From a virus: a stretch of DNA of 63,673 nucleotides. The first letter of the stretch is position 1, and every line of letters begins with the position of its first letter. The notes under the pieces were generated by a model, which saw only the letters and a list, made by a program, of their open reading frames with translations, had not been told where the DNA came from and searched no databases. The position numbers and the translations under genes were made by a program. Below are positions 1,585-59,976 of the stretch, piece by piece. The stretch spans positions 1 to 63,673 of IMG/VR virus record IMGVR_UViG_3300024320_000006. One strand, given 5' to 3'.

Positions 1585-3543
1585 TTATGATATTTTCTTT
1601 AACTCGTTAAATACTATATTGTGTTCTTGTAAATATGTATCGGTATTAACATAAAGTTCTCCTAACATTTTTTCATTATCAGGATCAGTTACATCAGTTA
1701 TTGTTAATAAAGTGATGTTTACCTTTTCACCTGCTCTACCTGCCCAACCTAATTGAGTATCGTTTAACCAATATTGTGAATTATGGAACTTATATGTTGG
1801 TAAATCTGGTTTATTACCATTTGGTTGAACTGTAAATGCTTGATAATGTACAAACATTTTATTACCCTTCCATGTTTGAATTCTACGATCAGCGTCTTTA
1901 ACCGTTTTAGCAGTTCTAGGCATTAAACTTTTAAAAAGCTTCATATCTACTTTATCTCTATTAGACAATACCTCGGGTTTAAAATTATTCATTGTTGATT
2001 CATTTAAGAATTCTTCAAATAGTTTAACCTTTTTCATAATATTTCTTTTATTTTCATTAGTTGGTTTTACTTTATTACCGACGTCTGGAGCCTCTCCGTG
2101 TTTTTTAATATATTTGGCCTTTGCTTCATCACTGTATTCTTCCCACCAATTTTCAGGCTCTGGTTTAGATTTATCATCTATATTTTTATTAGACTCTGCT
2201 TTTTTAAGAATGCTTTTCCAGTTTTTCATATTTTTACTTGCTGCCTTTTGGCTAGCTTTCCACATTTCAGGGTGTTTTCCTTCAGCTGCATATCCTGGGT
2301 AATTATGTTCTCTACCTGCTTCTCTATCTGCAAGTGTACCTCTTTTATACCAATCATCTTTGCCGTCTTTAGTAAGACCAAATTCTTTTGGATTTGATTT
2401 CATTTTTTCAAGCTGATCTTTCTGACCAGTCTTTGTATATAGTAATTCTAATGCGCTGTTTTTAGCAGTATCTGGATCTGTTTCTGTAATTCCTATTCCT
2501 GGTACTGCATTTCCTGTTCCTGTTCCTTCCCAATTTCCTTTAAATTCATAAGGAGGTCCAAATGGCTTACCATCTTTATCAGTTACTATCCTATCAGATT
2601 TTCCATAAGGCGTCGCTACTTCAATTTTTCCATCTTCTCTTGTAAAATATGCTACATGAAAATCTTTTGTAATTTCACGCATTTTGTCTTGAACTGTTTT
2701 ATCGTTTATTTTTCCATCCTTAATATATTTACTAGGATCTTTCATAACTGCTTCTCTACATTCTTTGGCTTTTTCTTTATCTACATAAAACTTTTCAAAT
2801 ACTTTCATTGATCTTTCTAACTTTTCATCAACTGATAATCCTTCAGCATTTGGATCTTCATCTGGCCAAGTTGATGCCATGTCGTCGGCAGTATGTGACG
2901 TTCTATTTGCTCCTCCTCCTGAATTAGAGCCAACGTGTGTAATGTTGTCTTTGCCAAAGTTTTTTATAGTGTCAGTTAAGAATTCACCTCCTGAAAATGT
3001 CCAATCACTTGTGGAAACCACTGTAGGTATATTTGTAAATTTATTCTTATCTTCTATTTTACTTTCTAAATAATTAGTCTTCGATTGATAACCTCTTTCT
3101 CTATCTTCATCTGTCCATTCATCAGTTGGCCAATAATTACTTTGTTGTTCTAATGGAATTTTTCTATTTCCATCTTCGTCTTTAGGTGTATCTACAAAAA
3201 AATCCAATATTGCCTTAGCTGGAGCCTGTTGTCCTCCATCATTTCTTCTAATATCCATGTGAATACCTTTTGGATTTTTTACCTTTGCTAAAATTTCTTC
3301 TCTATAATATTCTGCTAACACATCTCCTTGTGGGCCTGTATATCCTAAACCTACTGTCTTAATTTCATAAACATCTCCAGGTAATTTTTTAATAACTATT
3401 GGGAAATGTTTTTTACTTAATTCTTTATAACGTGCTCTCTCCTTATCGGTTAACTTTTTTGACATGTCACCTGCTTTCGCATCTAACTTCTCATATTCCT
3501 TATCTTCGTTTTCTAAAATAAATTGATTATAATTAATTATCAT
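1585..3543 (-). CDS. S41-type serine peptidase-like protein with capsid-targeting-like N-terminus
   Basis: 652 residues. The N-terminus MIINYNQFILE resembles the T4 internal-protein targeting sequence, with ILE as a possible prohead-protease cut site. Residues 92-104 (GIHMDIRRNDGG) and 180-212 (TFSGGEF with Ser184, then HVGSNSGGGANR) match the core of C-terminal-processing/tricorn (S41) peptidases, where the Ser of T-x-S-x-x-E is the nucleophile. The remainder, to about residue 500, is hydrophilic and lysine-rich. At residue 503 a second methionine (ATG at 2037) opens MKKVKLFEEFLNE, another targeting-like sequence, followed by a 150-residue unrecognised domain; this looks like a fusion of two cargo proteins or an internal start. 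It is 7 bases downstream of the nucleotidyltransferase gene. A protease delivered with the DNA is inference; the S41 assignment is by motif only. Confidence 0.7.
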   Translation of the reverse strand: MIINYNQFILENEDKEYEKLDAKAGDMSKKLTDKERARYKELSKKHFPIVIKKLPGDVYEIKTVGLGYTGPQGDVLAEYYREEILAKVKNPKGIHMDIRRNDGGQQAPAKAILDFFVDTPKDEDGNRKIPLEQQSNYWPTDEWTDEDRERGYQSKTNYLESKIEDKNKFTNIPTVVSTSDWTFSGGEFLTDTIKNFGKDNITHVGSNSGGGANRTSHTADDMASTWPDEDPNAEGLSVDEKLERSMKVFEKFYVDKEKAKECREAVMKDPSKYIKDGKINDKTVQDKMREITKDFHVAYFTREDGKIEVATPYGKSDRIVTDKDGKPFGPPYEFKGNWEGTGTGNAVPGIGITETDPDTAKNSALELLYTKTGQKDQLEKMKSNPKEFGLTKDGKDDWYKRGTLADREAGREHNYPGYAAEGKHPEMWKASQKAASKNMKNWKSILKKAESNKNIDDKSKPEPENWWEEYSDEAKAKYIKKHGEAPDVGNKVKPTNENKRNIMKKVKLFEEFLNESTMNNFKPEVLSNRDKVDMKLFKSLMPRTAKTVKDADRRIQTWKGNKMFVHYQAFTVQPNGNKPDLPTYKFHNSQYWLNDTQLGWAGRAGEKVNITLLTITDVTDPDNEKMLGELYVNTDTYLQEHNIVFNELKKIS

Positions 3544-3550
3544 AGTATAT

Positions 3551-4816
3551 TTATCTTCCGTATTTTATGATGCCCATAAGCTGATTAATTGCAGCAAATG
3601 TGCCGGTAAGTTTCATAATCTTACCTTTATATTTAAAGACTATTCCCTCAGTTGGTACAATACCTTCGATACCTCCAATACTTTCTAATCTTTCTAATTC
3701 AGCTTCGATTTTAGCAACTTGCTTTAAGTCACCGTTAAGTTTAACGTCAGCTGCTGCCTTTCTAATTTTAGCATGTAAGTTTTTCTTTTCTAAATCAGGA
3801 TTTGCAGCAACAAAATTACTTGCATTTAATAATACATCTTTTCCTAACTCTAAAAATAAGTTTTCAAATGGTAAAATATTCTGCTTATACTTTTTACCTT
3901 TTATCTTATCAAACTCTTTGATTTTTTTCATTTGTTCGGGAGTAGCAATCTTTTTCATAGCAACCATATTCATAGTTTGCTTGTCATTGTATGCCCATCT
4001 TAAAAATAAACCTTCTTTTAAATCACTTGAAATATCTGCAAAATCTTTTTCAATTTCTCTTCTCCACCATGCTTCATGATACATTTTAACTTCGTCACCG
4101 TCTGATAAATTAAACTCATCTCTTAAGTCATTTAATTTACTGTGATAATAACTTTGTCTCTTTTCAAAATCTATGTTTTTCTGAAGTTTAAGTATTTGTG
4201 GAGGAATAATTGTAAATGTCTTTTGTACATCTGCCTCTATACCTTTAAGAAGTCTTGCAAGTTTTGCACCTGTTTGCTGTGACATGTTAACTATATTACC
4301 TTTGCCATCAGTTTCTGCCATGCCGTGAAATTGAATAACATCTCTGTCATAATTAATCACATTAGGGTTCTTAGAATAAATTAACTCCATATTAAGAAAG
4401 TTTTGTCCATTGTTAAATTCTTGGTGATCGCTTAAACTTAATAATGCAGCTTCTAAATCTGTTGCAGCATAGATAAAAGTATCTTCTACTAGTTTTGATG
4501 CATGGCCCGTGAACATTTTAATAACTCCATCTAAAGATACAGGTGCCATTAGTTGCCCTTTGTTTCTTGAGAAAAGAACTTGACCATCCTTTACTGTAAC
4601 AAAGAAGTTTTGACCATCTGTTTTTTCAGTAGGTCCTTCTTCAAAATGTATTTCACCTTGTAATGAATTTGTAACAATGGTTTTAAAATCTTGGAAAGTT
4701 AAATCATTATAGTCAAAGGGATGAGGCATGTGGCCTGCAGCTCCTCCTTCTAAAATCAAATTACCCTCTACTATCTGAGCCTTTTCGACTAGAAATTGTT
4801 CGTAAGTTAATAACAT
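3551..4816 (-). CDS. Covalent nucleotidyltransferase (RNA/DNA ligase-like), KTDG motif, with targeting-like N-terminus
   Basis: 421 residues. Lys65 lies in EKTDGQNF, the K-x-D-G motif I of ATP-dependent RNA/DNA ligases and capping enzymes, in which the Lys carries AMP or GMP. A motif-III-like segment FLNMELIY follows, and EGIVFK (390-395) with KLTG (402-405) fit motifs IV and V near the very C-terminus. No OB-fold or other C-terminal domain follows, so it is a minimal catalytic domain as in Rnl2-like ligases or the uncharacterised ligase-like proteins of marine T4-like phages. The N-terminus MLLTYEQFLVE resembles the T4 capsid-targeting sequence with LVE as the possible cut site. It sits between a scaffold-like gene and the S41-like gene. 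Whether it joins RNA, DNA or modifies protein cannot be told. Confidence 0.72.
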   Translation of the reverse strand: MLLTYEQFLVEKAQIVEGNLILEGGAAGHMPHPFDYNDLTFQDFKTIVTNSLQGEIHFEEGPTEKTDGQNFFVTVKDGQVLFSRNKGQLMAPVSLDGVIKMFTGHASKLVEDTFIYAATDLEAALLSLSDHQEFNNGQNFLNMELIYSKNPNVINYDRDVIQFHGMAETDGKGNIVNMSQQTGAKLARLLKGIEADVQKTFTIIPPQILKLQKNIDFEKRQSYYHSKLNDLRDEFNLSDGDEVKMYHEAWWRREIEKDFADISSDLKEGLFLRWAYNDKQTMNMVAMKKIATPEQMKKIKEFDKIKGKKYKQNILPFENLFLELGKDVLLNASNFVAANPDLEKKNLHAKIRKAAADVKLNGDLKQVAKIEAELERLESIGGIEGIVPTEGIVFKYKGKIMKLTGTFAAINQLMGIIKYGR

Positions 4817-4831: not shown

Positions 4832-5566
4832 TTATCCTAAAGATGATTGTAACATTCCTACAGCAGCTCCATAGTCTCCATCAGCTTTCTTTAACATTCC
4901 TTCAGCAGCTTCTTTAGCTTTAGCCTCGTCAAAATCATCACCGAATGCTTCTTTATACATTGTCATAGCCATCTCCATAAAATCTTCATCAGACTTAACT
5001 TCAGCTTCTTCAACTTTAGATTCTTCTAGTACATCTGCCTTTACGATTAAGTAATAAGGACCTCTACTAGAACCTACTACTCTACCTTGATCGGAATTAA
5101 TAACCGTTGAATCAGGTACAGATATAACATTTGATTTATTTTCATCAATCCATTTAGCTCTAGTAGTGGAGCTATTAAAAGATATTAATGGATTACCATC
5201 TACTGTTTTTTGTGTATTTACATATTTAGCTCTAGCTTCGGTAACTGTTGATTCTTCTACTTTGTAAGTTTCTCCGCCTACTTTAAATTCTTCTTTATCT
5301 TCTTCTTTTGCTTTTTTAACAGCTGCTCCAAATGCATTACCTTCAGTTTCTACCTCATCAGTTTCTCCAACTAATTTAGCAAAAAATTCAGTTCTTTGTT
5401 CTTCAGCTATTTCAGCAACAGTGGTTACTTCATACTCAGCTAATAAGTCAGCAAATCTTTGAGCTTCAGTTGTTCTCTTTGTAGACGCTTCTTCTTTTAT
5501 CTTAGTGTCTATTGCTGCTTTTCTAGTTTCAGAAAATGTAGCAAATGATTGAATTTGTGTTTCCAT
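4832..5566 (-). CDS. Acidic, helical prohead-core-like or internal protein
   Basis: 244 residues, very rich in Glu, Lys and Ala and predicted to be mostly helical. The start METQIQSFATFSE has the aromatic spacing of the targeting-like sequences but is not a clean match. The middle contains a repeat-like GNAFGAAVKKAKEE and VGGETYKVEES, and the C-terminus (about 190-244) is an acidic helix pair, DFMEMAMTMYKEAFGDDF onward. The composition suits a scaffold or prohead core component, or an internal protein; no enzyme motif is visible. It is the first gene of the left operon, with a GATATATAA promoter-like motif 33 bases before its ATG. The function is inference. Confidence 0.6.
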   Translation of the reverse strand: METQIQSFATFSETRKAAIDTKIKEEASTKRTTEAQRFADLLAEYEVTTVAEIAEEQRTEFFAKLVGETDEVETEGNAFGAAVKKAKEEDKEEFKVGGETYKVEESTVTEARAKYVNTQKTVDGNPLISFNSSTTRAKWIDENKSNVISVPDSTVINSDQGRVVGSSRGPYYLIVKADVLEESKVEEAEVKSDEDFMEMAMTMYKEAFGDDFDEAKAKEAAEGMLKKADGDYGAAVGMLQSSLG

Positions 5567-10762: not shown

Positions 10763-11131
10763 TTAAAACCTTTTACCGATTGAAGCTCCGATTGCAGTTC
10801 CAACGAGTCGTGAAGTTAATAAATCATATAGAATACCTTTTTGTACACCTAATACTTTAGCTACCATTTTTCCAATAGATTTTCCTAAAGCAAATCCAGC
10901 AAGACCACCTACAATGGAACCTAAAAGACCTTCATTAGTCATTTCATTATTAAATCTATCAACATCTAAGTCTCCATTTTTATCTCTGTATTCGTTTAAA
11001 AATTCATCAACTGCTTTATCTACTTTTTCTTCTAGTTCAGGAGTCCATTCTTGTTGAAGTCCTTCTGTTAAAAGTTGCATTTCCTTTTCAGTAACTCTGT
11101 TTTCTTCTAAATATTCTATAAATGTTTTCAT
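10763..11131 (-). CDS. Glycine-zipper membrane-active protein with targeting-like N-terminus
   Basis: 122 residues. MKTFIEYLEENRVTE begins like the T4 internal-protein targeting sequence MKTYQEFIAE, though the expected Phe is Tyr and its spacing is shifted by one. An acidic helical middle is followed by two small-residue-rich hydrophobic stretches at about 69-94 (GLLGSIVGGLAGFALGK) and 106-118 (GTAIGASIGK), typical glycine-zipper helices that oligomerise in membranes. The start lies 3 bases after a GATATATAA motif. A protein carried in the head and inserted in a host membrane during DNA entry would fit, but this is inference; a holin-like or structural role is possible. Confidence 0.6.
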   Translation of the reverse strand: MKTFIEYLEENRVTEKEMQLLTEGLQQEWTPELEEKVDKAVDEFLNEYRDKNGDLDVDRFNNEMTNEGLLGSIVGGLAGFALGKSIGKMVAKVLGVQKGILYDLLTSRLVGTAIGASIGKRF

Positions 11132-16504: not shown

Positions 16505-19500
16505 TTATGACTTTATTTTTATTAAAGGTCTAATCTTATAAGAGTAGCCTATTCTTTTATTATATATTAATCTAAAATTGAGAGGGTTTACAGGGTCTAA
16601 TTTATAAGTAAAATTACCATCTGAGATATATCCATTTACATTTAAATTAGAGGGATCAGAAATAATATCAATTGTAGTTATTTGTTTTTTCCCTTCATAT
16701 ACCGCTAATCTAATAGAATCTATTGAAAATGCAGGTATTATATTTTCAGCAACATATCCATTAATATCATCACTTAACGTGTCAATTCTACCAAAACTAT
16801 TTTCAACCTCTACCAATCTGTTCATTGTATAACTTAAACCTAAACTGCTTAGTTTTTTAACAACGGCCTCCCTCATATAAAAATCCATTATTACTTCTCT
16901 TTCAGTTTCTATATAATTAATATCATTTTGAGATTCACCTAATAATTTAATATTGTTTAACTCCTCAATAGCCTCATATCTTCCATGTGTAAAGTTAAAT
17001 ACTTCATATTCTTTATTTAACTTTATAGCGCTTGAACTCATATAACTTTTTTCTTCAACTATATTTTTAGTTCCTGGAATATATTGAATACCTCCTCCAC
17101 TGGTTGATCTAATGTAGTAAGTATCTTCCCATCTTGACATGAAAACATTTTTGTTTTTCTTTTCAATAGCAATTTCATTTATTAAATTATATTTAGGTAA
17201 TAAATCATCTGATTCTGAAAGTTTTATAACTCCACTAGTATCTATGTCGTTTACTTTATGGAAAAAATGATTTTTAATACTTCCCCATTGGCTGTCATGT
17301 AAAGGTGATTTAACTTCACCTATGTTAAATAATACACCACACCCATTTAGTTTTTTATATAATTCTATTGCAAGTTTATTTTCATCAGCATTACCAATGT
17401 TATAATTATAGACATATCCAATTGGAGTTCTATATACATCGCTCCAATCATATCCGTCACCTGGTTCAATTTTATGCATAGAAAAAGGTTCACTAAATGT
17501 AATAATAGGTTTAGTATTTATGGTATATTTTCCATTTTGTCTAGTTAAAAGAGCAAAATATTCGTTTCTAGATTTTATACTATATCCAATAGATTCATTT
17601 GTTAATCCAAATGCTTTAGGTTTATTAATGTCTATTTCAGGATATAAGTTAGAAGTTTTAACTATTTCAACACCGTCTTGCATTTCTAAAGAAAATGTAT
17701 TTTCAATAATACTTCCATCAACATTAACTGTTAAATATTCAGCATTGTTAGTAGTATTTAAAACATTTGCAACATTTCCAGCAGATAATAAATTTAATAA
17801 AGATGAATGTGCAAAAATACCTCCACCTCTATATGAATAGCTTGCAGACTTATATTGATTTAATGTATAAAATTGAGTAGGTTGAGGAACACCATTTATT
17901 GTCATTTCCCCAGTAACTGAAATTTTATTATCATTTATTACATTGTCTATGTTTAGTTCATATGTTATTCCAGCAACTTCAACTTCTAAAATACCATAAG
18001 AACCAGTTATAGGATCTTTAAGTATTTGTGAAGTAAATGAAGGAACACTACTACTGTTGTGAGTAATTCCATCTATTACAGTGCTTTGACCTTGACTTAA
18101 ATTAACTGAACTTAAATCTAATGCACCCGAAACTATGCTATTTGAATAGTTATAAAGATCTTGTAACTTATGATCTAGTTCATATAATAATTTTCTATTT
18201 AAACATCTAAAGTTATCATCTGATAAATTTAAATCTAAAATTAAAACAACAAATTTAAATTTTTTATTTTGAATTATTCTAAGTTTTAATTCATTTGGAG
18301 AATTTACATCAAAGGATGTTTTTAAAACGGTTGAAAATCTATAACCATTAAATTCACTATTTTTAATAAATTCTTTAGTTATGTTATTTTCAATTTTTTT
18401 TCTAGTTTTAGGTATAAATCTAATACCTTTAAATATTGTTGAGGCAAACGATTCACCTCCTCCATCTTCTATTATTGTATACTTTTTAAAAGTTCTAGAT
18501 TTTCCAAATGAAGTTTGAGCAAATGTTTCATCAGAACCAACCATTGCCCCAGTCCCTACAAAATATGTTTTAAAATAATCAAAATTTATATCTTTAAAAT
18601 GATCTAAACTAAATTCAATATTGGGTGAAGGTTTTAAATAACTAAAAGTATTATCGACATCAAAATACTCTAAGTATGTAGGGTATTCGTCTATATAGAA
18701 CCATTCGTGTGTCATTTTAGTTTCGTCTCTATCTAAACTTTCTAGAGAAGCAGCAAAATTAGTTTCACCAAATGCTTCATTTAAATTTAGAAAGTATGGG
18801 TTTTCTCTAACGTTTAAGCTATCCTTTAGAGACCATTTATTAATATATGGAACTACTCTGGAGATTGTAGCAAATTCCGTTGTATTATTTTCTTGTAGTC
18901 TTTCAAATTCACTAGATATTCTAGTCATTGTGTTTCCTTCAGGTAAACTGTTTTCATCTTCTAATATGTTTATTAAATTAGAAAAATAAGTATTAGAATC
19001 TTCCTTTAACCTTTCAACATCAGCATATGCATCTAAAGGCATTTCTCCATTAGGCCCAGTAGGTTCATCAATTGCATTTGAAAATGGGTAAAGTATGTCA
19101 TCTTCTAAATCTAATTCTTTTAAATCAGAATTAGATTCATCATAAAAATCAAAATCCATATCATGAATATCATATGCACTAAACATTCCCCATTCAATTT
19201 TAAAGTCTTTATAAACATTAACAATATTTTCTATACCATTGTTTTTATCTTTAAGAATTACTCTTTTAAAATTAGAATTTATCTCTCTTGGATCATCTAC
19301 TATGTCTAATACCTCATTAAATCTATTTTCAATATCTAATAAATATTCACCTATACTGATTTCATCTTCATCATCTTCATTAATATAAATTGAAGAATTT
19401 ACATTACTTCCTCCTTTTAAATACCAAACTTCATTATTTAATAAAAAGTTAGAAGTTATGTTTTTATTAGAGGATTCCTCATTTATTTCTATGAAATTAG

Positions 19501-22207
19501 AAGAAGATAAATTTTTAACAAAAATTCCTAATTCTCTATTATAACCGTCAACGTCTGAATAAATTATAATTTCATTTTCTAAAACAATAGAACTAAATAA
19601 AGTATAATTATTAATTAGTGAACTTATTGAATCTGCAACATTCTTTAAAGTACCTTGATTTGAGAATCTATTATTTTCAAATCTACCTTTATCAACGTTG
19701 TTATCGGCTATAAATGTATTTTCTACAACATTAATATGAGTGTATGTTTTTTTAACATCTAATATTGTTAAGTTGTTATTTAAACAAAAAATACTATGGT
19801 TTTCTTCAAAATTATATTGCTTTTCTACAAGTTCTATAAAGTATTTATTGCCACGTTGAATTAAAGAAGGTTCATACTTTTCAAAAGTATTACCTACACT
19901 GATAGGCCAATTGTTTACTAAATCTAGAAGAGTGTCATATTCAGTTGCGCCTGAAGGTCTTGTATAACCAAATCCAGTATTATCATTTAATGTTACTGAC
20001 CCTGTATTTTCATTAACTACAATCTTTATTGTGAATCTTTGTTTTTTTAATTTTAAAAGTCTAAACTCATCTCCATTTAATGGGTTATCTATTATTTTAA
20101 TTTTAATAAAATCAGAAGCTGCACTTGTATTAACAATAATCTCTATGTTTTTATTAGTCTTTTTAATTCCTGTAAATAAACTATAATCAGTATTATTAGT
20201 ATCTGCTCTTAATTCATAATTTTTACGATTCCAATATACTCCATTTTTAATATTATGATAATTTGAAAAACTTTTAATCCAACCTAACATTGGCATATTT
20301 TGATAAAACACATTATGAGGTAACATATAAGTTCCGGAACCAACATCGCTTAAATCCATTTCACTGATTAGTGTGTCTTTTTTAAATGTAAATAAATCGT
20401 TTTTAATATTATCAACGGATCCTCCTCCTAATTTATGTTCATCTACATAAATTCCAAAATACCTATTTATAGAAAACTCTTCAGCTTCTTCATCATCAAA
20501 TAAAAATTCTAAATTAACTAAGTTTGCACATGCTAAATTATTTCTAGAAAAACCTTCAGTTATAAAATCATTATATTCTATAATAGGTTTATCTGTTTTA
20601 ATAGTATCTTTATAGTGAAATTCTCCTTTACTAGTGAAGCCACCTTTTTCTAAATCTATACCATTATAAAAAGTTTGTTCATCTTTATTAAATGAAACAG
20701 TTAATGGAGAGTCTGGAAAACTATCATCATTTACATAATTTCTAATATATTTACCTATAGCAGAGTCATTAGAAAGATCAATTGTCTTTATTAATGTTGC
20801 ATTTTTAAGCATTTCATTAATTCTATCTAAATTTTCAGAATTAGAATAATTCTTTGTGTTTATCGGATCTTTAACCCTATAGATTAAAAACTTAGAAGGT
20901 ACTTTTTTATCTAGCCAAATTGGAGCTAACATTGCAAATTCACTATCATATAGTTTATTATAATTTATAGAAGTACCATAATTATAAGTTTCTTCTAATT
21001 GTTTTTCATAACTATCTAATACTGAAAAATCTGAATTATCTCTTTTTACTTTATAAACTAAATCATTTGGTGTAGAATCTTTATTCCAAAATTTAGCAAC
21101 ATCATATGAATATGATCCAGTTTCTTTAACTAAATATTTTTTATAATTAGAAGCAGCAAGTTGATCAGTCGCATTAAAACTTTCTAAATACATTTGATCA
21201 TTTTCAACTATTAACTTTATATTAGTGCTTATTTTAGGATTTGTTCTAAGTAATGGTTTTGAAATGTTGTCATATCTTCCATTATTTTCTATATCTGTTC
21301 TAATTTTAAAAGGAGTTAAACTACTATAAGGATCGCTTCCATCAGACGTTCCATTTAAGTTTTCTAAAGATTCAGCTACCTGTTGTATTAAATTAGGATT
21401 AATTTGTGCTACTTGTTGATTAGGATCTGTTGGAAAATCATCTGCATTATCACCTACACCATCTCCATCAGAATCTAAAGTTTCAGTTGAATCATTTGGA
21501 AATGCATCAGCGTTATTACCTACGCCGTCTCCATCAGAATCTAAAGTTTCAGTTGAATCATTTGGAAATGCATCAGTGTTATCTCCTACACCGTCTCCAT
21601 CTGAATCTAAAGTTTCAGTTGAATTATTTGGAAATGCATCAGCGTTATCTCCTACACCATCTCCATCTGAATCAGTGTCTTCGTTAGGATCTGTTGGAAA
21701 TGAATCAGTGTTATCTCCTACACCATCTCCATCAGAATCTAAAGTTTCAGTTGAATCATTTGGAAATGCATCGGTGTTATCTCCTACACCGTCCCCGTCA
21801 GTATCAGTATCTTCGTTAGGATCTGTTGGAAAGTCATCAGCGTTATCACCTACACCGTCCCCATCAGTATCAGTATCTTCGTTAGGATCTGTTGGAAAGT
21901 CATCGGCGTTATCACCTACACCATCTTCATCTGAATCTGTGTCTTCGTTAGGATCTGTTGGAAAGTCATCAGCGTTATCACCTACACCATCCCCATCTGT
22001 ATCAGCAGTTTCAGTTGGATCGTTTGGAAAAGCATCTTTATTATCAGCTACTCCATCCCCATCAGCGTCTCCACCGCTATCTCCACCATCTCCTATTGGG
22101 GTTCCACCGGCACCCGAATCAGTGTCGTTAAAATCAGTTGGGCCGTCTCCAGAACCTGAGTCAGTGTCATCTCCACCTAATATTGGGTCATCTCCACCTT
22201 CAAACAT
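16505..22207 (-). CDS. Giant fibre/adhesin-like structural protein with thrombospondin type 3-like calcium repeats
   Basis: 1900 residues, the largest gene here. An acidic, Gly/Asp-rich head (1-45) is followed by ten copies of DxDGDGVGDN separated by DAFPNDSTET-like linkers (about 46-265), a thrombospondin type 3-like repeat whose Asp ladder binds Ca2+. Such repeats are frequent in Bacteroidota and other marine surface proteins. The rest is a long, Asn/Ile-rich beta protein without recognised catalytic motifs. Position between a collagen-like fibre and baseplate-linked proteins suggests a tail spike or long fibre. A GATATATAA motif lies 38 bases upstream of the ATG. The repeats may stiffen or cap the protein in seawater calcium; this is inference. 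Confidence 0.7.
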   Translation of the reverse strand: MFEGGDDPILGGDDTDSGSGDGPTDFNDTDSGAGGTPIGDGGDSGGDADGDGVADNKDAFPNDPTETADTDGDGVGDNADDFPTDPNEDTDSDEDGVGDNADDFPTDPNEDTDTDGDGVGDNADDFPTDPNEDTDTDGDGVGDNTDAFPNDSTETLDSDGDGVGDNTDSFPTDPNEDTDSDGDGVGDNADAFPNNSTETLDSDGDGVGDNTDAFPNDSTETLDSDGDGVGNNADAFPNDSTETLDSDGDGVGDNADDFPTDPNQQVAQINPNLIQQVAESLENLNGTSDGSDPYSSLTPFKIRTDIENNGRYDNISKPLLRTNPKISTNIKLIVENDQMYLESFNATDQLAASNYKKYLVKETGSYSYDVAKFWNKDSTPNDLVYKVKRDNSDFSVLDSYEKQLEETYNYGTSINYNKLYDSEFAMLAPIWLDKKVPSKFLIYRVKDPINTKNYSNSENLDRINEMLKNATLIKTIDLSNDSAIGKYIRNYVNDDSFPDSPLTVSFNKDEQTFYNGIDLEKGGFTSKGEFHYKDTIKTDKPIIEYNDFITEGFSRNNLACANLVNLEFLFDDEEAEEFSINRYFGIYVDEHKLGGGSVDNIKNDLFTFKKDTLISEMDLSDVGSGTYMLPHNVFYQNMPMLGWIKSFSNYHNIKNGVYWNRKNYELRADTNNTDYSLFTGIKKTNKNIEIIVNTSAASDFIKIKIIDNPLNGDEFRLLKLKKQRFTIKIVVNENTGSVTLNDNTGFGYTRPSGATEYDTLLDLVNNWPISVGNTFEKYEPSLIQRGNKYFIELVEKQYNFEENHSIFCLNNNLTILDVKKTYTHINVVENTFIADNNVDKGRFENNRFSNQGTLKNVADSISSLINNYTLFSSIVLENEIIIYSDVDGYNRELGIFVKNLSSSNFIEINEESSNKNITSNFLLNNEVWYLKGGSNVNSSIYINEDDEDEISIGEYLLDIENRFNEVLDIVDDPREINSNFKRVILKDKNNGIENIVNVYKDFKIEWGMFSAYDIHDMDFDFYDESNSDLKELDLEDDILYPFSNAIDEPTGPNGEMPLDAYADVERLKEDSNTYFSNLINILEDENSLPEGNTMTRISSEFERLQENNTTEFATISRVVPYINKWSLKDSLNVRENPYFLNLNEAFGETNFAASLESLDRDETKMTHEWFYIDEYPTYLEYFDVDNTFSYLKPSPNIEFSLDHFKDINFDYFKTYFVGTGAMVGSDETFAQTSFGKSRTFKKYTIIEDGGGESFASTIFKGIRFIPKTRKKIENNITKEFIKNSEFNGYRFSTVLKTSFDVNSPNELKLRIIQNKKFKFVVLILDLNLSDDNFRCLNRKLLYELDHKLQDLYNYSNSIVSGALDLSSVNLSQGQSTVIDGITHNSSSVPSFTSQILKDPITGSYGILEVEVAGITYELNIDNVINDNKISVTGEMTINGVPQPTQFYTLNQYKSASYSYRGGGIFAHSSLLNLLSAGNVANVLNTTNNAEYLTVNVDGSIIENTFSLEMQDGVEIVKTSNLYPEIDINKPKAFGLTNESIGYSIKSRNEYFALLTRQNGKYTINTKPIITFSEPFSMHKIEPGDGYDWSDVYRTPIGYVYNYNIGNADENKLAIELYKKLNGCGVLFNIGEVKSPLHDSQWGSIKNHFFHKVNDIDTSGVIKLSESDDLLPKYNLINEIAIEKKNKNVFMSRWEDTYYIRSTSGGGIQYIPGTKNIVEEKSYMSSSAIKLNKEYEVFNFTHGRYEAIEELNNIKLLGESQNDINYIETEREVIMDFYMREAVVKKLSSLGLSYTMNRLVEVENSFGRIDTLSDDINGYVAENIIPAFSIDSIRLAVYEGKKQITTIDIISDPSNLNVNGYISDGNFTYKLDPVNPLNFRLIYNKRIGYSYKIRPLIKIKS
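21417..22072 (-). repeat. 66-bp tandem coding repeats (thrombospondin type 3-like)
   Basis: Ten copies of a 66-base unit encoding 22 residues with the core DxDGDGVGDN. Two alternating linker variants occur (FPNDSTETL and FPTDPNEDT), showing duplication in blocks. A long plus-strand ORF across it is only a shadow of the repeat. Confidence 0.9.
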
Positions 22208-41399: not shown

Positions 41400-42320
41400 T
41401 TATTTAGATTCGTATTTAGAAAAAGTAACAGTTTGAGTAGTTTCAGAAGAGCCATCTGGTTTTACAATAGTTTTTGTGACAGTTTTTGTAACTTTATCAC
41501 CTTCAATTTGTTCAGATTGAGTTACTGATTGGTTTCCTACCTTGTTACCGTCATCGTCTAATGCATCTGACGTATTGGCTGTGAAATTAGAAGAAGTATT
41601 TCCTCGGTTTCCTATTTCTTTTCCATCAAATGTAGTAGCTAACTTAGACGCCTTTTTAGAAATATTAGAAGATTTAATTCCACTATTTTCTAATTTTGCA
41701 ATTTCAGCATCTGTTAATTCTTCATTAGCACCGCTTTTAATTTTTTTAGAAATTGAATCAGCTTCAGACTCATTAACTGAAACTTTCTTGGCTTTCTTCT
41801 TAGGTGCAGAAAATGAAGATTCTGGAGTAGATACACCCATTCCCATCTTAATGACATCTTCACCTTCTTCTTTCCTTAATTCAAAGTTTTTAAATCCAGA
41901 CTTTAACATATTAGGTGGGAGTACTTCTTTAAGATTATATTTCTTTTTAAGAAAATCAATTCTTCTTTTATCTTTTTTAGTTAATTTCTTACCATCTATA
42001 AATTCTTGTCTAACTATATTACTTATTGCAATGCTAGGCCTTTCTAATTTTTTAATAACAGCATCATCTATTGGCATTTTTAAAACATCACCTTCGTTAA
42101 TTGAAAACGGATCAGATATTCCATTAAATTTTAAAATACTTTCTAAATCAACAGCACTTCCATAATATTCCTCAGCTATTAAATCAATTCTACCAGCATC
42201 TGTATTTTTGACAACATATTCACTAAATGGAACCTCATCATCTTTAAATATAAATGTAGGTTGAGCTAAAATAAGTTTTCCACCCTCTATTAATTTATCT
42301 AATATTGTTTTAAAATTCAT
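41400..42320 (-). CDS. LysM-containing baseplate protein, gp53-like
   Basis: 306 residues. Residues 36-84 form a LysM-type domain (VVKNTDAGRIDLIAEEYYGS followed by LKFNGISDPFSINEGDVLKMP). T4 gp53, a baseplate wedge glue protein, also contains a LysM-like fold. The remainder is lysine-, serine- and threonine-rich, with a likely unstructured tail (about 160-300). Start overlaps the previous gene by one base. It probably holds wedges or binds peptidoglycan. Confidence 0.65.
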   Translation of the reverse strand: MNFKTILDKLIEGGKLILAQPTFIFKDDEVPFSEYVVKNTDAGRIDLIAEEYYGSAVDLESILKFNGISDPFSINEGDVLKMPIDDAVIKKLERPSIAISNIVRQEFIDGKKLTKKDKRRIDFLKKKYNLKEVLPPNMLKSGFKNFELRKEEGEDVIKMGMGVSTPESSFSAPKKKAKKVSVNESEADSISKKIKSGANEELTDAEIAKLENSGIKSSNISKKASKLATTFDGKEIGNRGNTSSNFTANTSDALDDDGNKVGNQSVTQSEQIEGDKVTKTVTKTIVKPDGSSETTQTVTFSKYESK

Positions 42321-44050
42321 TATCCGTTTGCAGTTTTTGCGGCCTTCTTAATAAATGCCTCTTTACTTCTTCCTTTAAATTCTTTATTACCATAAGCACT
42401 AACATCATATGTATCATTACTAGGGTCTAATACTCCTTGTTCTGGTAAATATAATCTACCTTTACCAGCATTAAACATTGATTCAATATCTGCTTTATCT
42501 CTTGGCCTATTAGGTTGCAATTCAATTACAACTTTTAGTTTAGTAGGAAAGTCTTCATAACCTAATGGTCCATCAAATTGAAAATCAGCTTTCTTACATC
42601 CTAAATTTCCAATTACAGCAATTGGATTTAATGGATTTCCAACCGTTAAATGCCATTGACCTGTAGATTCTCCTGTTAAGAATGCAGCTGCAACTTGTCC
42701 ACCTTGTGGTCCACCAAATAAATCCATCAATCCTCCACCGATTACGTTATTTAATATTTTACTATCTCCACTGAGTGCACCTTTAAGATCTTCTGCAACA
42801 TTTTTTATAGTTCCTCCTATATCTTTCATTACACTTCCCATAAAACCTTTAATATCTCCCTTTTTTAATTTTTCAAGATCACCTAATGAATTACCAACAA
42901 CTCCACCTCCTGTGTATCTAATTGCTCCTCCCCAAAAAGGAGCATTGTTATATGTCAATACTAATAAATTAGCTAAAACATCTAAAAAAGCCATTTTAGG
43001 AGAAGTATTTGGAATTCCTTTTAAATCATAATTAAATGTCAAACTAAAACTTTGATCAAAGGTTAAACCACTATCTCTAACTTGCATACTTTTTATAACG
43101 TTAAGTGGAGCGAATGTGTGATTAGGATATGTTTGTTTTAAAGGATCCCAGCCACCTCCTTGTTGCTTTCTTCTATGAGTAGTTGCTGCACTCTCTCCTG
43201 CTAAACCACCTTGTGCATTTTGAGAATATGGAATACTATCAATCATTCCTCCAACCATGCCTCTATCTCTAGGTTTACTTTCAATAGTTTGAAGCTCAGC
43301 TTCGGTTTCTTTCCATTTAAAACCAACTCCAAATTTTAATATCTCATTTAAACTATTTCCAATAGTTGGACTCATCCACGTTACGGCCTGTGCAAGAGCA
43401 GGTTGAATATTATCAACAACCTTTTTTTCTTGCATGCTATATTTTTTAGGATCTAATATATTATCTTCAACTGGGAATGGAAACCTTCTTAAAGTTAACA
43501 TATGATTATTTGTAACTTTACCATAATGTTCACAAAATATAAAGTCTTTTTGAAAATATCTAAAACTAGCAGATCCTTTAGTAAAAGTTCTTTGAATAAT
43601 GTTATTTGCAGTAGGGTTTATTGCTAAACCAGAATCTCCTGCACCTGATCCAACCATTGCTTTATTATAATCTGGATTTTCTCCTTGCCCTTTATATTTT
43701 AATAAAGTCCAATTATTAACTCTACTAGTAGGTGCATCTGACTCTGCGTCTGATTCTACTCCTTTTTTAACAGAATATGTAGTAGGCTGTTTAAAGTTTG
43801 ATTTAGGATAAAGTCCTTCCTCTTTAACGAGTGCGGGGTCAAAATCTGGATTTGAAGCTTTAAATAATGCCTTTTGTACTTCTTCAGGAGTTGGATTATT
43901 TTTAGCACCTTCTATTATACCACTATATGCCTTAGATGTTAAGCCATCTACAAGATTAGTATACATGACTTCCCCAGCATCTGTTATTTCATCGAATACA
44001 AAATCTGCAGCGCTTAGGCCTTCTTCCAAAATATGGGTAAATGTGCTCAT
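42320..44050 (-). CDS. Tail/baseplate structural protein, first gene of the hub operon
   Basis: 576 residues. Contains beta-rich stretches (ASFRYFQKDFIFCEHYGKVT, LTFDQSFSLTFNYDLKG) and Gly-rich helical linkers (about 370-450), ending with QFDGPLGYEDFPTKLKVVIELQPNRP, which resembles the tube-domain strands of tail proteins. No enzymatic motif. It is preceded by a GATATATAA motif 20 bases upstream and overlaps the LysM gene by one base. Probably part of the hub or tube initiation complex. Confidence 0.55.
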   Translation of the reverse strand: MSTFTHILEEGLSAADFVFDEITDAGEVMYTNLVDGLTSKAYSGIIEGAKNNPTPEEVQKALFKASNPDFDPALVKEEGLYPKSNFKQPTTYSVKKGVESDAESDAPTSRVNNWTLLKYKGQGENPDYNKAMVGSGAGDSGLAINPTANNIIQRTFTKGSASFRYFQKDFIFCEHYGKVTNNHMLTLRRFPFPVEDNILDPKKYSMQEKKVVDNIQPALAQAVTWMSPTIGNSLNEILKFGVGFKWKETEAELQTIESKPRDRGMVGGMIDSIPYSQNAQGGLAGESAATTHRRKQQGGGWDPLKQTYPNHTFAPLNVIKSMQVRDSGLTFDQSFSLTFNYDLKGIPNTSPKMAFLDVLANLLVLTYNNAPFWGGAIRYTGGGVVGNSLGDLEKLKKGDIKGFMGSVMKDIGGTIKNVAEDLKGALSGDSKILNNVIGGGLMDLFGGPQGGQVAAAFLTGESTGQWHLTVGNPLNPIAVIGNLGCKKADFQFDGPLGYEDFPTKLKVVIELQPNRPRDKADIESMFNAGKGRLYLPEQGVLDPSNDTYDVSAYGNKEFKGRSKEAFIKKAAKTANG

Positions 44051-48953: not shown

Positions 48954-49136
48954 TTAAGAATTAAGTTGTTGAGTCCCGCCTTCAACTTTAAGTCCTAATA
49001 AGAATTCTCTAATGGCAATACCGTAAGCAATGCCAGCGTAGAATTTATCTCCTTGGAATAGTAATAGGGTTGCTATTCCTCCTGCAATTGCGGCTTTAAA
49101 CCAAGACGCATTAACGATTTCTTTTATCTTATTCAT
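48954..49136 (-). CDS. Small hydrophobic membrane protein
   Basis: 60 residues. A charged N-terminus MNKIKEIVNASWFK precedes two hydrophobic segments (AAIAGGIATLLLF and YAGIAYGIAIREFLLGL). It shares its start base with the upstream gene's stop. Possible holin, antiholin or membrane anchor; nothing specific can be claimed. Confidence 0.5.
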   Translation of the reverse strand: MNKIKEIVNASWFKAAIAGGIATLLLFQGDKFYAGIAYGIAIREFLLGLKVEGGTQQLNS

Positions 49137-49759
49137 TAAGCTTCTGTTTTAGTAATGATTGAATTTTCTGGACCTTGAACTGGTTCGTTCTCAGATTCAG
49201 GTCTTTCATTCTCAGAAGTACCATATGCTTCACATGCTTCGTTACATTTTTTAGCATAAGCTTCTTTTATAGAATTACATGCAGCTTCATATTGTTCTTT
49301 TGTACAATCTTCTTTTTCATACATTTCTTGAATAACATTACATGCAGTTTCAGCAGCAAGTGTAGCCATTTCAGTCATGTATGTGTCTTTTGTATGTTCT
49401 GCATAATCATCAGCTTCATATGCCATTGCTTCATTTTTACAAGCTTCTTTAATATTCTTGTACATTTCAGCAACTGTTGTCGTATGTGTTTCTTCTTCTT
49501 CATTTACTTGAACAGATTCAGCAGCTGAGTGAGTGTGTGTGTGAACTGGCTCTTCTTCTGTTTCTTCAGTATCAGTAGTTTCTTCTTCTGTTTCTTCAGA
49601 GTCAGTTGTTTCTTCAGAGTCAGTGTCTGTTGTTTCAGTATCTGTAACAGTAGTATCAGTATCTACAGTGGCAGTATCTGTTGTTGGAGCTTCAGCAGTG
49701 GCAGTATCTGTACCTCTTGTTGAAAACTCTTCGAATGATAATATTTGATTAGTATTCAT
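49136..49759 (-). CDS. Acidic Thr/Asp/Glu-rich protein, internal or core-like
   Basis: 207 residues. It begins MNTNQILSFEEFSTRG, in which ILSFEEFS resembles the targeting-like sequences. Residues 17-70 are a very acidic Thr/Asp/Glu repeat (TDTATVDTDTTVTDTETTDT), then a HTHTH patch and a helical, cysteine-bearing C-terminal domain (four Cys in CKNEAM, ACNVIQ, DCTKEQYEAAC). Composition suits a disordered virion-internal or scaffold protein. A GATATATAA motif lies 25 bases upstream. Function unknown. Confidence 0.5.
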   Translation of the reverse strand: MNTNQILSFEEFSTRGTDTATAEAPTTDTATVDTDTTVTDTETTDTDSEETTDSEETEEETTDTEETEEEPVHTHTHSAAESVQVNEEEETHTTTVAEMYKNIKEACKNEAMAYEADDYAEHTKDTYMTEMATLAAETACNVIQEMYEKEDCTKEQYEAACNSIKEAYAKKCNEACEAYGTSENERPESENEPVQGPENSIITKTEA

Positions 49760-55864: not shown

Positions 55865-56086
55865 CTATGATTGATCAAGTTTCTTATTAATAATCTCAGT
55901 AACTTGGCCTACTTTTCTTTTTTCTTGAATATCTTTTAATTCTAAAGTTGCCTTCTTTTCTTGCACCTTATTAAACTTTTCAGATTTTTTATTTTGTGCT
56001 TCGGTTAATACGTTCCCTTTTTCAAGAGCATCTGCAATTCTCTTTAATTGTTTTAAAAGATCTTGTGTAAGTCTATTATTTTCCAT
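55865..56086 (-). CDS. Small coiled-coil protein, 73 residues
   Basis: 73 residues, helical with heptad patterning (DLLKQLKRIADALEKGNV, EKFNKVQEKKATLELKDI). Start overlaps the upstream gene by 11 bases. Function unknown; possible oligomerisation or adaptor peptide. Confidence 0.55.
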   Translation of the reverse strand: MENNRLTQDLLKQLKRIADALEKGNVLTEAQNKKSEKFNKVQEKKATLELKDIQEKRKVGQVTEIINKKLDQS

Positions 56087-56360
56087 ATCTGTTTTTTACT
56101 AGGTCTGACTTTCCATTTTGAAAATCTTGGTAAGGCAAACTATTATCCTTTTCTCCTTCATGTGGACTATCTATTTGTGGCCCTTCTACTTTTATATTAT
56201 CTTTATATGGATTTGTTTCACCCATCTTTGATTTAAAATATGCATCAAAGTCCTTTATAGTACCTCTAAAATTCCTAATGTTATATAAGTTAGAATCTTC
56301 ACCTGTAGAATCACCAGTTCCTTGATGTTCAAACACGTTATATGTTTTTACATATTTCAT
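56076..56360 (-). CDS. Small protein with looser targeting-like start, 94 residues
   Basis: 94 residues, begins MKYVKTYNVFEHQGTGDS. KTYNVFEH resembles the targeting consensus but lacks the I/L-x-E end. The rest is polar, with PHEGEKDNSLPYQDFQNG. Start overlaps the basic internal-like gene by 4 bases. May be an internal virion protein; uncertain. Confidence 0.5.
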   Translation of the reverse strand: MKYVKTYNVFEHQGTGDSTGEDSNLYNIRNFRGTIKDFDAYFKSKMGETNPYKDNIKVEGPQIDSPHEGEKDNSLPYQDFQNGKSDLVKNRYGK

Positions 56361-56677
56361 TCGTCTTCTTTCTTTTTAGATTTTCTAATAGTATCTAATT
56401 TAGATCTAACTTCTAATTCTTTCTTTTTTAAATCAGTCTTTTGCACATCAACCTTCGCGCCCTTAGCCTGTAATTTAAATAACATACTTCTCATTTTATC
56501 AGAACTATCTGCTTTACCATCTTTAACGTCGCTGGTTATTTTTTTATCTTTCTTTAAAAACTTCTTAACTTTTTTAACTGCTTTTTTCTGTTTTTTAGTT
56601 ACAGCTTTTATTTTAGTAGTAGTGTTATTCTTTTTCTTTTCAGAAATAAAACTTTCAAATGTTTTTATTGTTTTCAA
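56357..56677 (-). CDS. Lysine-rich basic protein with capsid-targeting-like N-terminus
   Basis: 106 residues. MKTIKTFESFISEKKKN closely matches the T4 internal-protein leader, with ISE as the possible cut site. The rest is about one third Lys (KAVTKKQKKAVKKVKKFLKK) and resembles small DNA-condensing internal proteins or histone-like tails. After cleavage it would be a basic peptide packed with the genome. This is the best candidate internal protein by composition; function inferred. Confidence 0.6.
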   Translation of the reverse strand: MKTIKTFESFISEKKKNNTTTKIKAVTKKQKKAVKKVKKFLKKDKKITSDVKDGKADSSDKMRSMLFKLQAKGAKVDVQKTDLKKKELEVRSKLDTIRKSKKKEDE

Positions 56678-57027: not shown

Positions 57028-57041
57028 AATATTATATTTAT

Positions 57042-57275: not shown

Positions 57276-57285
57276 ATTTTATTTA

Positions 57286-57450: not shown

Positions 57451-57451
57451 C

Positions 57452-57723: not shown

Positions 57724-58072
57724 ACTTAATTGTAATAGATTTAGATTCAGTTTTGCCGCCAAAGTCGATAATTAATAAACCATTTGTCATTTTTGCAGAA
57801 ATGTTTTCTACATTAGTATTGGTTGGTAAAACATAAGACTTTGAAAAAGATTTATAATATCTAGTTGATTTATCTTCATCAACCTCTGCTGAGACAGTTA
57901 ATGCTAATCCATCTATTTCTATATTAATATCTTTTTTAGAAAATCCTGGTAAAGCTAGTTCTAAGTTTTTTAAATCACCAGTACTAGCAAAGTTAGATCC
58001 ATAAAAATCCGCTTTATGGAATACATCAAATACATTGTCAAATGTATCAAAAAATTTGTTTGTTAAAATCAT
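57722..58072 (-). CDS. Small heat-shock protein (Hsp20/alpha-crystallin)
   Basis: 116 residues. The alpha-crystallin fold is seen in LELALPGFSKKDINIEIDG, LALTVSAEVDED, YYKSFSKSYVLP and ISAKMTNGLLIIDFGG. A short N-terminus and C-terminal ITIK replace longer bacterial extensions. Hsp20 is frequent in T4-like marine phages and may protect virion assembly. A host-like promoter (TTTG-N19-TAATTTTTG) precedes it, and the 93-base element with a terminator follows. The stop overlaps the element by 2 bases. Confidence 0.92.
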   Translation of the reverse strand: MILTNKFFDTFDNVFDVFHKADFYGSNFASTGDLKNLELALPGFSKKDINIEIDGLALTVSAEVDEDKSTRYYKSFSKSYVLPTNTNVENISAKMTNGLLIIDFGGKTESKSITIK

Positions 58073-58124
58073 TTTTATTATTTAATTAATTTAGTGCAAC
58101 ATTAGCGTTACATATATAATACTG

Positions 58125-58156
58125 CAAAAATTATGCCAGAGTTGCTTTTTTGCAAA
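58125..58156 (-). promoter_or_regulatory. Bacteroidota-type promoter for Hsp20
   Basis: Minus-strand TTTG (58156-58153), a 19-base spacer and TAATTTTTG (58133-58125) match the primary sigma-factor pattern of Bacteroidota (TTTG or TTG at -33, TAnnTTTG at -7) with one extra T. The leader to the ATG at 58072 would be about 45 bases. It differs clearly from the GATATATAA motif, so Hsp20 is probably transcribed by the unmodified host polymerase. The 120-base gap otherwise holds only a short hairpin TGACA-CTC-TGTCA overlapping the exonuclease stop. Confidence 0.55.
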
Positions 58157-58192
58157 TATTGTCATAAATATAAAAATAGAAGTGACAGAGTG

Positions 58193-58930
58193 TCATATTG
58201 TTTGTTGATGGCTAAATTTTAATAAAACGTTTATAGTGGCTCTAATATCCTCTTCACAATAATCTTTTAACTCTTCCATCATTCCATTCCAATAGGCTCT
58301 GGCAATTCCACCATAATCTTCATTCGAAGATACGTCAGCTTCTTTAGGATTTGAAATACCTAGCATAAATGTTAAATGTTCTAGTGATACACCAGCACCC
58401 CAACTTCCACATTTCCATATTTCAATAGTATCTAATAGGCAGTTTTCCCACGGCTTCATATCATGTAGATGAAATTTACTTGGAACTTTAATACCCATGA
58501 CCATACATTTTTTAAGAATGTAAGGCATATCAAATCTTTTAATATCATGACCTAGGATTTTAACATCTGGTATTTTATTAAATACAGCTCTCATAAATTC
58601 TATAAAATCCTCAACGTTCTTTCTTTCATCTGCACCATAGAATGATTTCTTTAAAAAGGTTGGATTGTCATCATCGTCAAATTTAACTTGACCTATTGAA
58701 ATACAAACTATTCTACCAAATTCAGGATATACTGCTGCATATTGCTTATAGATTTCACCATCTGATTTATCTGCTAATTCAGCAAAATCTTTTCTACATA
58801 CTGCTGCCTTTCTAGCCCAGAATTTCATTTCACCTGGGTGGTTAGCACAAAAATCTTCGTAATTTTCATAATGACTAGTCGTTTCAATATCTAAAACGAG
58901 AGTCTTCTTAAGTTCTGATATACTATACAT
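58193..58930 (-). CDS. DEDD-family 3'-5' exonuclease (PolB-exonuclease-like)
   Basis: 245 residues. LVLDIETTSH (Asp14, Glu16) is ExoI, LGHDIKRFDMPYI is ExoII and DYCEEDIRAT is ExoIII, with Y-C before the acidic residue fitting the DEDDy class of predicted PolB-type 3'-5' exonucleases. It lacks polymerase domains. Likely in repair, proofreading or nucleotide recycling. Located 17 bases downstream of the ATP-grasp gene. Confidence 0.82.
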   Translation of the reverse strand: MYSISELKKTLVLDIETTSHYENYEDFCANHPGEMKFWARKAAVCRKDFAELADKSDGEIYKQYAAVYPEFGRIVCISIGQVKFDDDDNPTFLKKSFYGADERKNVEDFIEFMRAVFNKIPDVKILGHDIKRFDMPYILKKCMVMGIKVPSKFHLHDMKPWENCLLDTIEIWKCGSWGAGVSLEHLTFMLGISNPKEADVSSNEDYGGIARAYWNGMMEELKDYCEEDIRATINVLLKFSHQQTI

Positions 58931-58947
58931 ATAGATTATATGTAAAA

Positions 58948-59976
58948 CTAAAGGATTGTTTCTTTACCGTCTATTATGTTTTGATAATTAATACAGCATT
59001 TAGATTTTTTAATTTGATCTGCATTTTCTTTAAGATTAATTTTATAAATAGGCTTAATATATTCTTCGTTTAAATGAGTCTTAAATTCTTGCGGTAATTG
59101 TTCGCTATAAAAATCTTCATATACCATAACATAAACTCTAGCCATTTTATCAGCTGCCATGCCAGATGCTGCATTTATTTCAGCAACCCAACAATCTCCA
59201 CCTTTATCTACCATTAAATCAATTGACCAAAGTCCAAGTTTTAATTTTTCTCTAACTGTTTTACAAATTTCAGCTACTCTATCCATAAAATCTAATTTAC
59301 TTACGTCTTGATCGACGTATGTAAATTCAGTTTGTTCAGCTGAATCTTTATCTTTAATTTCATTTTTACCCATTGAAACTCTTTCATGGACTAGAACTGT
59401 TTTTTCATTCATTAATAAAACTCTAAATTCTCTGTCAAGATCTTTTGCTTCTGAATAATTTTCAAACTCTCCTTTACTTTTTTCTAAGTCTTCATAATTA
59501 TCAAAGATTTCAATGCCTACTCCTGAATGGCCATCATCTGGCTTTGCAATTACTGGAAATTGTAAGTCTTTTGCATCTTCTCTTTTATAAACTGCCTTTG
59601 GAATAAAATCACAATCTTTAAACATTTTATAAAAATCACTTTTATTACCACTTATTTTCATCGGCTCAGGTAAATTATACATAACATCCTCACTAATCCC
59701 GTATTTTTCTAGAAAATTTAAAGCTTCTTTTGAATTACCTCCATAATATATAAGTGGAAGTTTTGGATCTACGTTTAAATCTTTTCCATAATCTCCTTGT
59801 GCGTAGAATGAATTAAATAGTTCATCTAAACATATATCATTTATTTCACCATAAATTCTTTTATTGTTTTTACCAGTAAGACCTTCTATCCTTTTACCTG
59901 CCAGTATAAAATTAACCTTTTTAAGATAGTCTTTATTGGACTTTTCAACTATAAATTGTTCAAATGTTTTAAGCAT
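58948..59976 (-). CDS. ATP-grasp ligase with capsid-targeting-like N-terminus
   Basis: 342 residues. MLKTFEQFIVEKSNKD gives the best match to the T4 leader, with IVE as possible cut site. The ATP-grasp part: FPVIAKPDDGHSGVGIEIF (140-158), FRVLLMNEKTVLVHERVS (about 184-201), and WSIDLMVDKGG...WVAEINAASGM (Asp253, Glu267, Asn269) for Mg-ATP. This fold joins carboxylates to amines or thiols. The motif before ATG is GATATATAACTTATG, identical to the motif before the glycine-zipper gene. Substrate unknown; together with the amidoligase it may make a peptide or modify a protein. Confidence 0.78.
   Translation of the reverse strand: MLKTFEQFIVEKSNKDYLKKVNFILAGKRIEGLTGKNNKRIYGEINDICLDELFNSFYAQGDYGKDLNVDPKLPLIYYGGNSKEALNFLEKYGISEDVMYNLPEPMKISGNKSDFYKMFKDCDFIPKAVYKREDAKDLQFPVIAKPDDGHSGVGIEIFDNYEDLEKSKGEFENYSEAKDLDREFRVLLMNEKTVLVHERVSMGKNEIKDKDSAEQTEFTYVDQDVSKLDFMDRVAEICKTVREKLKLGLWSIDLMVDKGGDCWVAEINAASGMAADKMARVYVMVYEDFYSEQLPQEFKTHLNEEYIKPIYKINLKENADQIKKSKCCINYQNIIDGKETIL

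Follow-up and report, generated by a model that had tools for sequence, protein, structure and literature searches.

The 63.7 kb window analyzed here, the whole stretch formed by positions 1 to 63,673 of the virus record IMGVR_UViG_3300024320_000006, encodes otherwise unrelated proteins that begin with the same kind of short peptide, and we interpret this peptide (hereafter the tag) as a T4-type capsid targeting sequence, which would be removed during head maturation while the tagged protein (the cargo) is later ejected into the host. We give this whole explanation a probability of about 0.82. Among its parts, a role of the tag as a head-targeting signal is very probable, its cleavage is probable, and ejection of the cargo into the host is favored with more reserve. 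In the proposed scheme, an N-terminal stretch with two aromatic residues three positions apart would dock the protein on the prohead core during head assembly, a maturation protease of the gp21 family would cut after [ILVM]-x-E so that the body stays inside the head, and the body would be ejected together with the DNA and could act at once in the new host cell; in this clade of phages, the tag would serve many interchangeable proteins, among which are several enzymes. The sequences themselves show the tag, its N-terminal place, its conservation as a peptide, the protease gene, T4-type head genes with LxE sites, and differing bodies behind a similar tag at one locus, whereas docking, cleavage, packaging, ejection, and the activity of each cargo are inferred.

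A sequence-only reading of the window had listed six such peptides, all of which were located on the minus strand where it had placed them (Table 1). The pattern that it gave, with (K/T/N)-(T/Y/L) ahead of the first aromatic residue, fits in frame at only three places (56677, 59976, and 2037), whereas the shortened core [YF]xx[FY][ILVM]xE fits all six. The four defined positions of this core, which was set before the comparison with T4 was made, are the determinants of the T4 IPIII tag; a review of work on the T4 head (PMC9026906) reports from mutants that targeting depends on residues 4 and 7 and processing on residues 8 and 10. When positions 60-110 kb of T4 were scanned with the core, the N-terminal matches were IPII and IPIII only, both of which begin MKTYQEFIAEA, and IPI was missed. 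A representative alignment of tags reads MKxIKLFExFxNE, the commonest residues following the tag E are K, A, S, N, G, and Q (277 tagged proteins), and the stretch directly after the tag is variable in sequence and length.

The position of the core at protein starts recurs across entire genomes, and it is the larger genomes, not the window, that carry the strong enrichment statistics. Genes were called as the longest non-overlapping open reading frames (ORFs), by which the gene at 56677, with its TTG start codon, was lost to a longer opposite ORF, so that the window counts are too low by one; within the 70 genes called there, 4 of 11 in-gene core matches lie in the first 9 residues. Five tag-bearing genomes were compared, namely G001 (IMGVR_UViG_3300028131_000823, a 205 kb contig that carries genes of the window at 99-100%), G002, G007, G010, and LR756500.1, with phage PAU as a sixth genome of another dialect. 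Counting matches that start in the first 11 positions, the core was N-terminal in 13 of 36 cases in G001 (266 genes; binomial p 3e-9; about 1 expected), 21 of 38 in G002 (351 genes; p 5e-18), 22 of 53 in LR756500.1 (687 genes after joining, 693 when called stretch by stretch; p 2e-14), 9 of 24 in G007 (154 genes; p 3e-7), and 8 of 29 in G010 (221 genes; p 2e-5). A common offset was found in 21 of the 22 N-terminal matches of LR756500.1, and the density of the core in the rest of the same proteins would predict 0.6-1.7 N-terminal matches. The motif search over the genome and its relatives that the earlier reading had proposed thus found N-terminal recurrence throughout (13 in G001, 8-22 in the four relatives).

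A protease gene and T4-type head genes are also present. The gp21-like protease anticipated for the rest of the genome was found on G001 and not in the window itself, and the prohead protease family PF03420 scored above its cut-off in 13 of 13 records (11 IMG/VR contigs chosen for length, including G001; LR756500.1; and PAU). Homologues of the PAU capsid protein (PF07068) and of its portal occur in all five genomes, where the capsid proteins carry an LYE/[DN] site in 5/5, IIE in 4/5 (VIE in G007), and LINE/A in 4/5 (LINS in G010). The prohead protease ORF is 604-686 residues long in G001 (85645-87543), G002, G007, G010, and LR756500.1 versus 246 in PAU, and the extra part of this long ORF is possibly a fused scaffold. 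LR756500.1 has another protease-like ORF, a short one at 154840-155244 (L006), which does not reach the PF03420 cut-off.

Loss of the motif from relatives of the individual cargo proteins was looked for, and the tag was mostly kept. Homologues of the window's nucleotidyltransferase (NTase) carry the pattern down to 54% identity, in 30 of 32 distinct proteins (L042 starts after the tag and L038 has LKDFISE), as do all 10 IMG/VR homologues of the ATP-grasp protein. The full core is present in 15 of 24 distinct homologues of the glycine-zipper protein, among which F..[FYH] at the start was found in 23, [LI]xE[GSA] slightly downstream in 23, and both in 22. The earlier proposal of a T4-like targeting tag on unrelated proteins therefore gains support from the protease gene, the N-terminal recurrence in relatives, and this retention.

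A second dialect was found in PAU, where M..L[YF]E matches 21 of the 300 genes called and 18 of these read MKx(L/I)xxL(Y/F)E (dialect MKTLxxLYE). Of the five proteins labelled as internal capsid proteins in the PAU record (NC_019521.1), four carry the pattern, versus 17 of the 295 other genes (Fisher p 9e-5, a value that is not blind because the pattern was picked after the labelled N-termini were seen). The source of these labels was not found in the literature searched, and a term search of PMC2993671 returned none of internal protein, capsid targeting, or CTS. According to N-terminal sequencing data in Table 1 of PMC5646251, the PAU capsid protein is shortened from 585 to 520 residues; the nearest LxE (ALME) is at residues 62-64, and a cut there would leave 521, within one residue of the reported length, an agreement that concerns this protein only. 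PAU thus resembles the clade in having an N-terminal pattern on unrelated proteins together with a gp21-family protease, and differs in using MKTLxxLYE instead of the clade core.

The tagged proteins might alternatively be parts of the prohead core or scaffold that are degraded and leave the head, rather than injected cargo, which we consider unlikely although it accounts for two observations that also count in favor of the main explanation: in three of five genomes (G001, G002, and G007), a tagged small protein is encoded between portal and protease, where T4 has gp67 and gp68, and the annotated PAU scaffold carries PAU's N-terminal pattern. The diversity of the tagged bodies is a better fit to cargo. 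In a census of 129 partly overlapping sources, whose loci partly share contigs and in which identical proteins were counted once, 277 of 2958 distinct proteins were tagged, and their bodies fell into 77 unrelated clusters (57 singletons; cluster 0 is over-merged by chaining), several with enzyme domains. Pfam was run on 74 of the 77 cluster representatives, clusters 21 and 62 being judged chance and cluster 38 crossing a stretch border. Most representatives had no Pfam match; the matches, above cut-off where a cut-off was listed, were a DUF2201 metallopeptidase with VWA, leucine-rich repeats, DUF5661, an AAA_33/zeta-toxin kinase, a cytidylyltransferase-like domain, GNAT, and a 2H protein matching Acb1. 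A PNK3P 3'-phosphatase was matched at E 2e-21, and S41, AAA_16, and the G010 ATP-grasp stayed below cut-off. Tagged genes can be densely packed, with 13 among 15 consecutive genes at G002 193196-200292. Homologues in the other four genomes were found for 5/12, 9/23, 5/8, 8/9, and 1/21 tagged genes and for 132/214, 157/276, 140/180, 107/127, and 111/580 untagged genes, so that a faster turnover of tagged genes is unsupported (Fisher p 0.13 to 1, tagged versus untagged). Among the larger families, LR756500.1 encodes five tagged leucine-rich-repeat proteins (L001 13446-14282 and four paralogues; cluster 5). The tagged proteins of G001 59139-61592 and cluster 0 vary greatly in length, with a common KRRYTENHP start behind the tag in many members and no significant Pfam match in the longest.

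Slightly less probable still, the tag could act as a peptide signal with a different destination or task (for example an assembly compartment, the membrane, or protein stability), in which case the LxE ending would be incidental. The existence of half tags without LxE and the frequent Lys after the E would suit such a signal; against it stand the match of the core to the four T4 determinants with the recovery of IPII and IPIII in the T4 control, the protease in every record searched, and the PAU internal capsid labels.

We consider it very improbable that a DNA or RNA element copied along with the genes, for instance a recombination seam or a translation start element, underlies the shared stretch. 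Between tags on different bodies of one genome, identical residues use the same codon at observed/expected rates of 0.66/0.67, 0.67/0.65, 0.57/0.60, 0.60/0.53, and 0.75/0.78; tag codons therefore differ about as codon usage predicts, which indicates that the peptide and not copied DNA is kept, and that selection acts on the tag peptide. The pattern is also kept in NTase homologues diverged to 54%, and copying of a DNA module as a general cause is largely ruled out by the codon comparison. A tag-coding seam was seen at one locus, between the NTase gene and the cytidylyltransferase-like gene, where 40-51 tag-coding bases are the piece shared between otherwise different genes (six loci). Strains differ in cargo there though their NTase genes are 93-100% identical in DNA: the S41-like and 156-residue fusion occurs in the window and L018, the 156-residue gene alone in L019 and L020, a 139-residue gene in L021 and L022, three genes in a row in L026, and a 199-residue gene in L027; a comparison with L021, L022, and L027 leaves 44 tag-coding bases in common. 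These comparisons indicate that bodies are exchanged behind the tag at this locus, where a seam may act in addition to selection on the peptide. Chance likeness in AT-rich genomes, to which clusters 21 and 62 and a few single matches such as G001 116425 are probably owed, is negligible as a general cause and ruled out by the positional and shuffling controls (300 shuffles of residues 2-25 of every gene gave on average 0.2-1.5 and at most 2-6 N-terminal matches, where 8-22 are seen).

Several observations nevertheless weigh against a capsid-targeting tag with ejected cargo. No tagged gene is seen between portal and protease in G010 or LR756500.1. Cargo bodies are not basic, unlike T4 internal proteins: 29 of 76 tagged bodies are net positive versus 481 of 1377 untagged proteins, so that basic cargo is unsupported; basic bodies are a trait of the T4 internal proteins, not of the signal itself. 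Three window genes (49136-49759, 56076-56360, and 4832-5566) carry half tags at best, the LR756500.1 ATP-grasp protein starts MKFIKPYEEF with the aromatic half only and no LxE, and the full core is missing from 9 of the 24 distinct glycine-zipper variants. In Microcystis phage Mel-JY01 (L192 2311-4230), the NTase and a cytidylyltransferase-like domain form one protein, and no tag precedes the NTase part. The residue that most often follows the tag E is Lys (65/277). In PAU, none of 14 core matches is N-terminal (300 genes), the pattern was chosen with its labelled N-termini in view, and only 7 of 21 pattern genes continue with (K/R)LNE. Scans with two patterns gave no tag, weak single matches aside, over the initial 50 kb of MaF61 (168 kb) and of PTm1 (225 kb), and generality to giant phages of Bacteroidota is not supported.

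Compared with known systems, the capsid-targeting tag of this clade is like that of T4 IPI, IPII, and IPIII in being a short N-terminal peptide with the same four determinant positions, in genomes with a gp21-family protease and a gp23-family capsid protein. The clade differs from T4 in its consensus (MKHIKLFEQFINE, MKYIKEYEEFLNE), in having 8-22 tagged genes per genome (genomes partly incomplete), and in its bodies, which are not basic, of which several have enzyme domains, and which include tandem fusions. In SPN3US and phiKZ, internal head proteins have N-terminal propeptides cut by the prohead protease, and a T4-like role was proposed for them (PMC5694885); removal of the clade tag would be alike, with several of those propeptides exceeding 100 residues, whereas the clade tag has 10-14 residues and a clear consensus. 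Taken together, the sequence data point to a broad T4-type capsid-targeting system with new dialects and exchangeable cargo that includes enzymes, the physical steps of which would follow the T4 scheme.

Fusions of tagged units were found in two families. The start at 2037, which had been described as N-terminus-like, falls on a Met inside the 1585-3543 ORF, and its unit occurs as a separate tagged 156-residue ORF in L019 and L020. Six of 10 ATP-grasp homologues have another domain between tag and ATP-grasp, and this domain is a separate tagged protein at G001 150704-151006. The junctions read are LLKE/S (L201), GFNE/S (L197), and FLNE/S in the window, and the protease could cut fusions of this kind apart. 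The earlier label of S41 peptidase is weak, its match staying below the Pfam cut-off (22.6 bits versus 24); the ATP-grasp match is above it (PF07478, 28.6 bits versus 24). The NTase has KTDG, which we take to be a ligase motif; its first ten matches in PDB are RNA or tRNA ligases, all weak (E 0.065 or worse), and it has no Pfam match. The fold is suggestive of an RNA ligase below significance in PDB, and the viral proteins that the NTase matches significantly either bear the name cytidyltransferase-like or have none. A joint function with the cytidylyltransferase-like protein is suggested because the two are fused in Mel-JY01 and near neighbours in the window. In a structure model of the NTase, a helix is placed at residues 5-13 (low confidence; mean predicted local distance difference test score, pLDDT, of 51-55 over residues 1-20), followed by a linker with pLDDT <50 at 17-29. 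The protein at G002 198662-199201 matches PF23474 (Acb1) at 28.3 bits (cut-off 27) and the general family PF13563, matched no PDB sequence, and contains HCT and HMT, two HxT motifs that are presumably a feature of Acb1. T4 gene 57B (L195 13952-14410), which we assume to be Acb1, starts MMEFKDFST, a faint likeness to MKTFKEFTS of the neighbouring IPI that may be a coincidence.

A wider reading, which we hold to be possible rather than probable, is that the tag marks a general virion effector platform, in which a cleavable address peptide, joined to bodies that are swapped at fixed loci, would supply strain-specific, pre-loaded proteins for host takeover, nucleic-acid repair, and anti-defence that act before phage gene expression, and in which some cargo would be tandem polyproteins split in the head. 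Candidate examples are the Acb1-like phosphodiesterase, the ligase-like NTase, and the 3'-phosphatase, and, as tandem polyproteins, the ORF at 1585-3543 and the ATP-grasp fusions of L197 and L201.

Table 1. Tagged, partly tagged, and bordering genes of the window with the positions of their tags.
Feature	Position	Strand	Basis
Cytidylyltransferase-like gene without tag, bounding the cargo-exchange locus on the right (conserved; NTase on the left)	2..1573	-	PF01467, 31.7 bits
Tagged cargo gene, S41-like unit and second cargo unit fused in frame	1585..3543	-	652-residue ORF; S41 below cut-off; identical in G001
Tag MIINYNQFILE	3511..3543	-	Sequence read, core match
Second unit of the fusion, encoded by a 156-residue gene of its own in L019 and L020	1585..2037	-	Comparison with relatives
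Internal tag MKKVKLFEEFLNE at fusion junction	1999..2037	-	Core match; aligned with N-terminal tags of other cargo
Tagged KTDG NTase, ligase-like	3551..4816	-	Pfam, no match; 30/32 distinct homologues tagged
Tag MLLTYEQFLVE	4784..4816	-	Sequence read, core match
Possible half tag SFATF	4832..5566	-	Homologues SFKSF or SFEDY, without [ILVM]xE there
Tagged glycine-zipper protein	10763..11131	-	PF13488, 23.3 bits, below cut-off 25
Tag MKTFIEYLEE	11102..11131	-	Sequence read, core match
Acidic protein, half tag SFEEF without LxE	49136..49759	-	Full core in G002, G007, G010 homologues
Possible half tag MKYVKTYNVFE	56076..56360	-	G007 homologue, MKHVKLFEEF without LxE
Tagged Lys-rich protein, TTG start	56357..56677	-	4 relatives, each 99% identical
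Tag MKTIKTFESFISE	56639..56677	-	Sequence read, core match
Tagged ATP-grasp protein	58948..59976	-	PF07478, 28.6 bits; 10/10 IMG/VR homologues tagged
Tag MLKTFEQFIVE	59944..59976	-	Sequence read, core match

With regard to the phage itself, 31 phage records contain matches to the window gene at 42320-44050, the best being LR756500.1 (462 kb), which also has same-order matches to most genes within the first 46 kb of the window. The matched records include Prevotella Lak phages, Tenacibaculum phages PTm1, PTm5, and pT24, PAU (record host Sphingomonas), Chryseobacterium phage MA9V, Flavobacterium phage MaF61, and uncultured giant phages, and because of these records a Bacteroidota host is likely. 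Elsewhere in the window, a long protein at 16505-22207 has many Asp-rich DSDGDGVGDN-type repeats near its N-terminus, and an open-ended ORF at 62415-63671 has repeated ISAEEAARVLEVSIERVARIA-like units (both read by eye).

The literature searched, in which subscription journals were thinly covered, yielded no publication describing this tag in such phages. If the interpretation as a capsid targeting sequence is true, candidate injected proteins of these phages would be readable directly from sequence, and the T4 targeting principle, seen there on a few small internal proteins, would in giant phages reach an extensive cargo that is exchangeable and includes enzymes. Injection by giant phages would then become testable by virion proteomics and reporter fusions, and the tags would offer a natural means for loading chosen proteins into phage heads.

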